Assembly: GCF_001592435.1 (NCBI RefSeq)
Contig: NZ_CP014750.1
Span: 1,240,001-1,304,000 of the forward strand
DNA from: Thermococcus peptonophilus
Lineage (GTDB): Archaea > Methanobacteriota_B > Thermococci > Thermococcales > Thermococcaceae
Reading direction: 5' to 3'
Length of the DNA: 64,000 bases
The notes under the pieces were generated by a model. It was given only the letters and a program-made list of their open reading frames with translations, did not search any database and was not told the origin of the DNA. This document shows, one piece after another, positions 27,468-49,390 of the stretch. Both the position numbers and the translations under genes were made by a program. Every line of letters starts with the position of its first letter. The first letter of the stretch is position 1.

Positions 27468-27689
27468 ATGGACAGAAATCTGAATCTTGAACGCGAGATT
27501 ATTGCCCTGTTAGAGAAAAAGGGCCCATTGAGCGTCGCTTTTATCACCCGGTTTTTGAACGAGATGGGAGTTGAATGCACCCGCCAGCGAGTTGAGAGGG
27601 TTCTGAGGGGCCTTGTCTCGAGGGGTGTTGTAGAGGCATTTTACAACAGCGGTATCTACAACAAGAGAAAGCACTACAGGGTGAGGTGA
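27468..27689 (+). CDS. Small winged-helix DNA-binding protein
   Basis: A 73-residue protein: 'REIIALLEKKGPLSVAFITRFL' helix, 'CTRQRVERVLRGLVSRGVVEAF' recognition helix and wing ending 'KRKHYRVR'. This is a minimal winged helix-turn-helix. GGTGAG precedes the ATG. It is the first gene of the cluster for secreted DUF1102-like proteins and ends six bases before the second winged-helix gene. A role in controlling that cluster is likely but inferred. Confidence 0.78.
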   Translation: MDRNLNLEREIIALLEKKGPLSVAFITRFLNEMGVECTRQRVERVLRGLVSRGVVEAFYNSGIYNKRKHYRVR

Positions 27690-27695
27690 TAAATC

Positions 27696-28187
27696 ATGGC
27701 AGGTAACAAAGCCCCCTCGAGGATGATACTGGGCAACAATAGGCGAATGCTTCTAATAGAGTTCCTCCAGAGGAAAAACGGGAGCGCTGAGCTCAGGGAT
27801 GTTGTGGAGTACATTGCCGAGAAGGAGGGTAACACTGACAGAAAGCACAGGAAGAGCGTCTACGTCAGCCTCATGCAGACCCATCTACCAAAGCTGGAGA
27901 GGGAGGGGATTGTCACCTTCAGGAGAGGCACTATAACCCTTTTAAAGGTTCCAAACAACGTCACCCTTTACATGGAGGTCGTCCAGAAGAACGACATAAG
28001 CTGGAGCGTGTTTTATGCGGGCCTCTCGGTGATCTTCGCCCTCATGGCCATATGGTTCGGCAACGTTCTCCTCCTCTTTGCTGCAGTGACCTATCTGACA
28101 GTCTCTGTTATACACCACAAGAGGACGTACCTCATAGCCAGACCAAAAGAGAGGAAAAACATCGAAAAATCAGAGGACAATGTGTAG
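27696..28187 (+). CDS. Winged-helix protein with two membrane helices
   Basis: A 163-residue protein with an N-terminal winged helix ('RRMLLIEFLQRKNGSAELRD', 'VYVSLMQTHLPKLEREGIVTF') and two C-terminal hydrophobic helices at about residues 108-145 ('WSVFYAGLSVIFALMAIWF' and 'VLLLFAAVTYLTVSVI'), then a basic tail. Such membrane-tethered wHTH proteins occur in archaeal surface-structure loci. It could sense envelope state and regulate the downstream secretion genes; the ligand is unknown. Confidence 0.75.
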   Translation: MAGNKAPSRMILGNNRRMLLIEFLQRKNGSAELRDVVEYIAEKEGNTDRKHRKSVYVSLMQTHLPKLEREGIVTFRRGTITLLKVPNNVTLYMEVVQKNDISWSVFYAGLSVIFALMAIWFGNVLLLFAAVTYLTVSVIHHKRTYLIARPKERKNIEKSEDNV

Positions 28188-28196
28188 GTAATGACC

Positions 28197-28230
28197 GGTT
28201 ACCGGGCGGTAACCTCCAACTTCATATATA
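28197..28230 (+). promoter_or_regulatory. Operator palindrome and TATA box of the DUF1102 genes
   Basis: GGTTACC (28197-28203) and GGTAACC (28208-28214) are a perfect 7-bp inverted repeat with a GGGC spacer. TATATA follows at 28225-28230, predicting a start near 28250-28256. The palindrome sits just upstream of the TATA box, where archaeal activators bind. Confidence 0.7.
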
Positions 28231-28251
28231 TCCGAAGAACCCATGTGATTG

Positions 28252-28374
28252 TGGAGCGGCCGTAATGGTCGTCCGCCAAGGGCACTGTGTTGCCCACCAA
28301 TGTGGTGTCGAAACACCTCTGGTATTTCGGGACCTGCTTCCGTACCACAGTGCCTCCGTACAGGAGGCGAAAAA
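28252..28374 (+). promoter_or_regulatory. Structured mRNA leader with sequestered ribosome binding site
   Basis: About 120 bases between the predicted start point and the DUF1102 start codon form nested and competing helices. GCCTCC (28352-28357) pairs with GGAGGC (28363-28368), which is the ribosome binding site. GGCACTGTG (28281-28289) pairs with CACAGTGCC (28346-28354), which shares GCC with the first helix. GGGCA (28280-28284) can instead pair with TGCCC (28291-28295). GGTGT-CGAA-ACACC (28304-28317) is a separate tetraloop hairpin. This is the layout of a translational switch. I know no named class that it matches. Confidence 0.6.
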
Positions 28375-28968
28375 ATGAGAAAGAATCTTGCTTTGGGAAT
28401 TTTTGGCCTGTTGGTGGCCTTTGGCCTAGTTTTGGGGGCTGGAGCTAACTTCAGGGACTACAACGCGGACAGGAGCGTTCATTGGAACATCGTGACCGAT
28501 GACAACGAGCTCATCGATCTGACTCCAATTCAGCCCTACGCGTACATTAACGACGGTGGCGTCCTGGTTGTGGACATAAGCCCGAACAACCCGAACTATC
28601 CGGGCTACGGGATGGGCCTGAGCCCGAACTCAGAGTACAACTTCGATGAAGTGTTTGAAGTCAGCAACGACCTCTGGGAAGAGAACATGAGCATAGTCGT
28701 TAGGATAACCAGCGACAACGAGGCTATTCAGTTCTACGGACATGAGTTTGACGTCTACGACAGCACTACCGGTCAGACGGTTTACGCCAGCGACATGGCG
28801 AAGAACGACGTCTGCTTTGTTGTGAACAACGGAGACGCGGTCAAGGTCGGTATGGACTTCACAGTCGGGAACGACGCACCGGGCACGACCAACAGCGCAG
28901 CCGTACACATTGAGGCCTACAGGCTAGGCACAGAGCCGGCTGATCTGGTTGGCAAGTGCGGTCAGTGA
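28375..28968 (+). CDS. Secreted DUF1102-like filament subunit candidate, copy 1
   Basis: A 197-residue secreted protein. A signal peptide (MRKNLALGIFGLLVAFGLVL) ends at GAGA, and the mature part begins NFRDYNADR. The body is predicted all-beta ('VTDDNELIDLTPIQPYAYIN', 'FDEVFEVSNDLWEENM') and I assign it to DUF1102 from recall. The start is the ATG 28375 with GGAGGCG seven bases upstream; a longer frame from 28249 would read through the structured leader. Only 14 bases separate it from its paralogue. DUF1102 proteins resemble TasA/camelysin and archaeal bundling-pilus subunits, so a filament role is plausible. Confidence 0.8.
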   Translation: MRKNLALGIFGLLVAFGLVLGAGANFRDYNADRSVHWNIVTDDNELIDLTPIQPYAYINDGGVLVVDISPNNPNYPGYGMGLSPNSEYNFDEVFEVSNDLWEENMSIVVRITSDNEAIQFYGHEFDVYDSTTGQTVYASDMAKNDVCFVVNNGDAVKVGMDFTVGNDAPGTTNSAAVHIEAYRLGTEPADLVGKCGQ

Positions 28969-28982
28969 AGGAGGAATGAAAG

Positions 28983-29522
28983 ATGAATAAACTATTTGGA
29001 TTGGCATTGTTAATGGTTGGAATGCTCCTGGCCGTTGGCGCGGGTGCTAACTTCCGCTACTACTCCGCCGACAGGACAGCGAGCTTCGATGTTGTCTCCG
29101 ACGACAACGAGCTTATTGACCTGACCGCACTCCAGCCCTACGTGACCTACGACGCTGGAAAGCTCTACGTGGACATAAGCGAGTACAACCCGAACCACCC
29201 CGACTGGGGAGGAACTGGCATGAGCCCGAACACTACCTACGTCTTTGAGGAGATGTTCGAGGTAAGCAACGACCTCTGGGAGAACAATCAGACTGACTAC
29301 CCGATCTGTGTTGACATAAAGAGCAACCACGACAACGTCCTGCTCTTTGCAGGGAACTACACGAACCCCATAGCAGGGCCCTCACAGAACCTTGAGTTCA
29401 CGGTCTACTATGGAGACCCCGTGCCGGTTGGCATGATCTTCGACAACACCAACGCAAGCCTTGGCATGGACCAGTTCCAGCTCAGCTTCGAGGCACATGC
29501 GGGAGCCTGCGGGCCACAGTGA
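28983..29522 (+). CDS. Secreted DUF1102-like filament subunit candidate, copy 2
   Basis: A 179-residue paralogue of the preceding protein. The signal peptide ends GAGA before NFRYYSADR. The two share 'DDNELIDLTxxQPY', a 'DISxxNPN' strand and 'FEVSNDLWE'. GGAGGAATGAAAG precedes the ATG. Two related subunits in tandem upstream of a dedicated signal peptidase resemble the TasA/YqxM or AbpA/AbpB arrangement. The assignment rests on motifs and context. Confidence 0.8.
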   Translation: MNKLFGLALLMVGMLLAVGAGANFRYYSADRTASFDVVSDDNELIDLTALQPYVTYDAGKLYVDISEYNPNHPDWGGTGMSPNTTYVFEEMFEVSNDLWENNQTDYPICVDIKSNHDNVLLFAGNYTNPIAGPSQNLEFTVYYGDPVPVGMIFDNTNASLGMDQFQLSFEAHAGACGPQ

Positions 29523-29545: not shown

Positions 29546-29574
29546 ACTTTGTTAATCTTGGAGAGATGTTGAGG

Positions 29575-49264: not shown

Positions 49265-49273
49265 GGGAACACC

Positions 49274-49329
49274 TCAGGTGGGGATAATGTCATCATCTCG
49301 ACATCAGGAGGGATGACACTCCTCATCGG
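49274..49329 (-). ncRNA. Possible box C/D sRNA
   Basis: On the minus strand the order is CCGATGA (C-like), CTGA (D'), ATGATGA (C', exact) and CTGA (D) within 56 bases. Spacers are 15, 7 and 12 bases. The first C box deviates at two positions and the last CTGA overlaps the binding site of the 48797-49264 gene, so the call is weak. Confidence 0.25.
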
Positions 49330-49390
49330 TCAAGTCCACTAACGGAGAGGACTTATTAAGGTTTAGGGCAACGTTCAATTGGTGTGTAAA

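Follow-up and report, generated by a model that had tools for sequence, protein, structure and literature searches.

A leader with competing helices at the ribosome site points to translation control of a DUF1102 gene in one Thermococcus branch

Bacterial translational riboswitch platforms sequester the Shine-Dalgarno sequence by means of two overlapping helices, one of which covers the ribosome site while the other frees it. In the ROSE and FourU RNA thermometers, a hairpin lies over the Shine-Dalgarno site, and in the leader of the phage MS2 maturation gene, translation has a window before the final fold is reached. For the Thermococcales, the accessible parts of two reports give crcB/fluoride, the preQ1-like sRk28, and sscA/sRk33 as putative riboswitches or 5′ UTR RNAs (PMC4247193, PMC3124441).

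The leader analyzed here lies in a window of 64,000 nucleotides from Thermococcus peptonophilus (the whole stretch of DNA that was analyzed), where it takes up ~125 nt (28250-28374) 5′ of a DUF1102 gene. It shares two overlapping helices at the ribosome site with the bacterial platforms but has no conserved aptamer or known ligand and occurs at one gene per genome in one archaeal genus. Like ROSE and FourU, it carries a hairpin over the Shine-Dalgarno site; unlike them, it has a conserved competing long-range helix, and over the growth range its computed melting is not sharp. A translation window before the final fold, as in MS2, is also predicted, although MS2 is a phage RNA and the window of the leader is computed at equilibrium only. 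The leader is structured and long and belongs to the same order as the crcB/fluoride, sRk28, and sscA/sRk33 RNAs, as far as these are described in the accessible text, but it precedes another gene. We take genome G064 to be that of P. abyssi. No P. abyssi locus in Table 1 of PMC3124441 lies at its DUF1102 locus near 1444010. The leader was likewise not described in the available text of the Thermococcales long-leader and riboswitch reports PMC4247193, PMC3124441, and PMC5316973, and the literature on Thermococcales riboswitches and RNA thermometers or on archaeal Shine-Dalgarno sequestration, in its available parts, yielded no description of it. The leader, with its two competing folds, points to an unreported translation control in one Thermococcus branch.

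Leader architecture and distribution

Transcription of the leader probably starts at ~28249-28252, judging from the TATATA core (Table 1) and archaeal spacing. A TATA-like core was found in all 34 leaders that carry the element, 132-186 bases 5′ of the start codon. A palindromic TAAY-N-RTTA motif (28188-28214) lies 5′ of the TATA box and was matched in 77 of 83 Thermococcales DUF1102 promoters by a loose pattern without chance control; it is likely an operator, perhaps for the adjoining HTH genes. Of two small genes 5′ of the leader, one (27468-27689) has sub-threshold regulator-like Pfam matches only, and the other (27696-28187) encodes a DUF7344 protein. On the 3′ side, the controlled gene is followed by a second DUF1102 gene at 28983 and then by one at 29557 that weakly matches a signal peptidase. 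Elsewhere in the window, an Rfam search identified the C/D box sRNA sR55 (49272-49330, minus strand; RF01307) and gave no match at the leader.

Table 1. Features of the leader and the controlled gene (window coordinates)
Feature	Position	Strand	Basis
TATA box core of the leader promoter (predicted)	28225..28230	+	TATATA read in the sequence
P1, 5′ hairpin GUGG-A-GCGGCC/GGUCGU-CCGC with a bulged A	28251..28276	+	Hairpin folds here in 34/34 leaders
P2, 5′ strand GGGCACUGUG	28280..28289	+	GGC invariant in 34/34
Local hairpin GGGCA/UGCCC	28280..28295	+	Not conserved beyond chance
Variable part between the P2 strands	28290..28345	+	Anchor to anchor, 54-105 nt across 34 leaders
P2, 3′ strand CACAGUGCCU	28346..28355	+	Pairing in 34 leaders
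PSD, GCCUCC/GGAGGC hairpin over the Shine-Dalgarno GGAGG (28363-28367)	28352..28368	+	99.0% of 204 cells paired
Controlled gene, DUF1102 protein of 197 aa	28375..28968	+	Pfam PF06510, E 4.8e-59

Two pairings that an earlier note on this DNA had described were both present in the window. The hairpin over the ribosome binding site, PSD, joins GCCTCC (28352-28357) to GGAGGC (28363-28368), and the 9-bp helix, P2, joins GGCACTGTG (28281-28289) to CACAGTGCC (28346-28354), with GCC common to both. The DUF1102 protein was matched in 57 of 61 same-genus genomes, in 35 of them closely (71-100% identity), and the upstream DNA of these 57 genomes was compared with that of 27 genomes of other genera (28 had the protein; G081, a partial match, was left out). 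The element was found in 34 of the 35 close orthologues, that is, in 34 of the 61 same-genus genomes, the exception among the close ones being G033. T. kodakarensis, which we take to be G012, very likely carries it. The parts always stand in the order P1, P2 5′ strand, variable stretch, P2 3′ strand, PSD, and start codon, and P1, P2, and PSD each form in all 34 leaders despite the varying stretch between the P2 strands. The positions and frames of ATG codons differ among these leaders, and 2 of the 34 have no ATG, so attenuation by a leader peptide was rejected (ATG starts only).

The element was not found in other genera of the order, and the 22 more distant genus members also have other leaders. 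A covariance model built from the 34 leaders gave 34 strong matches in 94 genomes of the order, one per genome and all at the DUF1102 gene; nothing else scored better than E 0.01, and seven others fell at E 0.01-0.8, under stricter filters that lose weak matches. A search of the leader against Rfam 15 returned no family and two chance-level matches only (E 5.6 and 6.8). Most other Thermococcales leaders of the DUF1102 gene have a 5′ hairpin of differing sequence (modest z-scores against shuffles in many; G091 left out), suggesting that P1 may have arisen earlier and serve a separate function. From the distribution, we read P2 and PSD as a probable later addition within Thermococcus. In one leader of another genus (L091, G061), the ribosome site 5′ of the DUF1102 gene is hidden by an unrelated 8-bp pairing, CCUCCCUU/AAGGGAGG, possibly an independent origin of the same control. 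In genus g4, leaders L099, L101, L107, L108, and L110-L115 have a 9-10 bp 5′ hairpin, for example GUGCCUCAU/AUGGGGCAC; in some of them, pairing of the 5′ arm with the ribosome site GGAGGC would be possible as well, and the words GUGCCUC and GGGGCAC occur in a different order.

Chance controls and pairing evidence

Of 200 dinucleotide shuffles, 2 folded as well as the window leader (z -2.67). Within this leader alone, the chance p values on shuffles were 0.040 for P2 and 0.007 for PSD, which is only moderately unlikely, and the control pattern GCCTCC-N(3-8)-GGAGGC is expected by chance about once or twice per genome. P2 and PSD exceed chance because they recur at fixed places in 34 leaders; among single leaders, P2 reached p < 0.05 against shuffles of the upstream part in 17 of 34. 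Sequence comparison establishes the parts of the leader, their conservation, and the sharing of bases between P2 and PSD.

All 34 leaders have the P2 duplex with its GGC/GCC pairs. Two successive pairs each vary among UA, UG, and CG, and 270 of 272 cells of the P2 core pair. On a sequence-only alignment, 91.8% of 340 P2 cells pair and the covariation score was reached by none of 500 shuffles, which ignore relatedness; one P2 position (columns 49-165) was unpaired in 21 of 34 leaders. For P1, 87.7% of 301 cells pair, and 2 of 500 shuffles reached its covariation score. PSD is nearly invariant and hence cannot be tested by covariation. In a tree-based test of helix events, P2 gave P 0.0002, 0.0008, and 0.024 at transition biases of 2, 4, and 8, with a one-base P2 bulge allowed in G007, G009, and G020. 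P1 gave P 0.0002-0.005 with arms taken from the individual fold of every sequence, a choice that favours P1, and with the pairs of G000, G012, and G057 set by hand.

No base pair was significant when pairs were tested more strictly for covariation against a tree-based null; the best P2 pair ranked 36 of 7537 (E 61). Loss of the pairing in relatives, which the earlier note had named as evidence against a switch, was not seen in the 34 leaders, and the covariation that it had proposed to look for was supported for P1 and P2 at the level of helices but not of single pairs. Together, the pairing tests provide good but not decisive evidence for selection on P1 and P2 pairing. The 5′ GGC of P2, which is the partner of the PSD arm, is invariant in all 34 leaders, and this is the strongest hint of competition between P2 and PSD.

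The two helices had also been said to exclude each other. This is true only of the bases that both helices use (GCC and also U28355, a possible partner of G28280) and not of inner P2, which could in principle stack beside PSD; such stacking is rare in the computed ensemble, and the mean probability of inner P2 at 75 °C was 0.17 versus 0.15 for the overlapping P2 pairs. The proposed third hairpin, GGGCA (28280-28284) with TGCCC (28291-28295), exists in the window and is no stronger there than in shuffled sequence (0.39 versus 0.50). As a conserved anti-P2 element it was rejected, with a family mean of 0.488, reached by 4 of 60 shuffle sets, against 0.445 for shuffles.

Computed folding, the proposed switch, and its alternatives

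All folding figures rest on energies extrapolated to 75-85 °C. In the computed ensembles, the probability of PSD exceeded 0.5 in 27, 30, and 29 of the 34 leaders at 37, 75, and 85 °C. The exposure of the ribosome site in the window leader was 0.08 at 75 °C, the second lowest of 42 Shine-Dalgarno sites in the window (median 0.46). Among relatives' leaders without the element, exposure was at least 0.34 in 47 of 48, G061 (0.02) being the exception; these are 48 of 50 such leaders, without G016 (no Shine-Dalgarno pattern) and G091 (no upstream sequence). When the 5′ GGC of P2 was complemented in silico, the cost of opening the site rose on average by 2.99, 1.49, and 0.65 kcal/mol at 37, 75, and 85 °C (in 33, 32, and 32 of 34 leaders), versus shifts of 0.14, 0.05, and 0.03 kcal/mol for control changes. 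PSD is thus predicted to win at growth temperature and P2 to lower the cost of opening the site, with a grip that weakens with heat. At 75 °C, P2 is predicted to dominate in G030, G044, and G048 and neither helix in G060, suggesting that the set point would differ between species.

We consider it about an even chance (roughly 0.5) that the leader is a translational switch of the Thermococcus surface-fibre (DUF1102) operon, gene-specific, OFF by default, and opened by P2. The resting OFF state would consist of P1 and the PSD hairpin covering GGAGG. In the ON state, the distant 5′ strand GRGGCACUG would pair with CAGUGCCUC to form P2, which would take GCC(U) from PSD by branch migration and so free the ribosome site. 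We infer that the balance of P2 and PSD is regulated in the cell. The signal would most likely be a protein or other trans-acting factor that recognises P1 and the P1-P2 junction and stabilises P2, since the stretch enclosed by P2 varies too much to form a metabolite pocket. Such a factor would likely act at P1 and the short P1-P2 linker, the parts that are both conserved and non-ribosomal.

An unlikely alternative is that no signal is sensed, PSD acting as a fixed damper of surface-protein translation and P2 only tuning the level. In nearly all species, the balance of P2 and PSD determines the computed opening cost, which would agree with this, as would the lack of an aptamer-like core and the single gene; however, a long-range helix with pairing-preserving changes would be a costly constant where a weaker Shine-Dalgarno would do, and most relatives manage without the element. 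The conservation of P2 also argues against an RNA thermometer in which PSD melts above the growth optimum to free the site, because P2 would be superfluous there, and P2 itself drops with temperature. As for an RNA thermometer, a hairpin is computed over the ribosome site at low temperature, and the mean unpaired probability of the site in the 34 leaders was 0.09, 0.10, 0.15, and 0.30 at 37, 75, 85, and 95 °C. The increase between 75 and 95 °C would suit a thermometer, but any hairpin would show such a gradual rise, and the predictions leave PSD mostly closed at 75-85 °C, so we regard this reading as improbable.

We give similarly little credence to a timer on nascent RNA, in which P2 is in place ahead of the Shine-Dalgarno arm and new messages are briefly ON before relaxing to PSD. 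The mean computed probability of P2 at 75 °C is indeed 0.87 before this arm is made and 0.15 after it (above 0.5 in 31, then 3, of 34 leaders). Yet the calculation is one of equilibrium rather than kinetics, the precedence of P2 over its competitor follows from its mere presence, and with only 3-5 pairs to migrate, one would expect very rapid relaxation at 80 °C. A small-molecule riboswitch whose aptamer is closed by P2 is less probable still. Its architecture would be that of translational ON riboswitches, with mutually exclusive helices at the ribosome site found by comparison and computation, but the P2-enclosed region varies in length and sequence, and the element is confined to a single gene and genus without an Rfam family. 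No conserved aptamer core was found in the P2-enclosed region of the 34 leaders, and because this aptamer is defining, the leader was not filed as a riboswitch. Control by L7Ae or another kink-turn protein is very improbable: kink-turn-like patterns occurred in 14 of 34 leaders versus 5.9 (SD 2.1) in shuffles, but their places differ, several come from close relatives, and the 5′-end patterns coincide in part with P1. Of the hallmark of riboswitches or thermosensors that the earlier note had seen here, the conserved competing helices with a covered site stand, but they do not by themselves place the leader in either class.

The protein product and implications for Thermococcus

The AlphaFold2 model of the product of the gene at 28375 had a pLDDT of 84.8 and a pTM of 0.75. 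Its best PDB match was 7ueg (E 2.7e-5, probability 1.00), a bundling pilus from Pyrobaculum calidifontis, and FimA pilins came next. With low TM-scores, 0.31-0.40 for the first five rows, the 7ueg match indicates the kind of fold and not a close fit. The DUF1102 protein is accordingly predicted to fold like an archaeal bundling pilin. 7ueg is presumably related to TasA. No paper on DUF1102 was found in the literature search.

A wider reading, which we hold tentatively and below even odds, is that the switch proposed above is a natural archaeal leader that moves between two translational states in response to a signal; it would have arisen once within Thermococcus on an older, order-wide 5′ hairpin and would control a TasA/AbpA-like surface fibre and hence free versus attached growth. 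The leader is compact, its genus is open to genetic work, and sharp predictions for mutants follow from it. If the reading is true, it would link RNA-level control to archaeal surface fibres.
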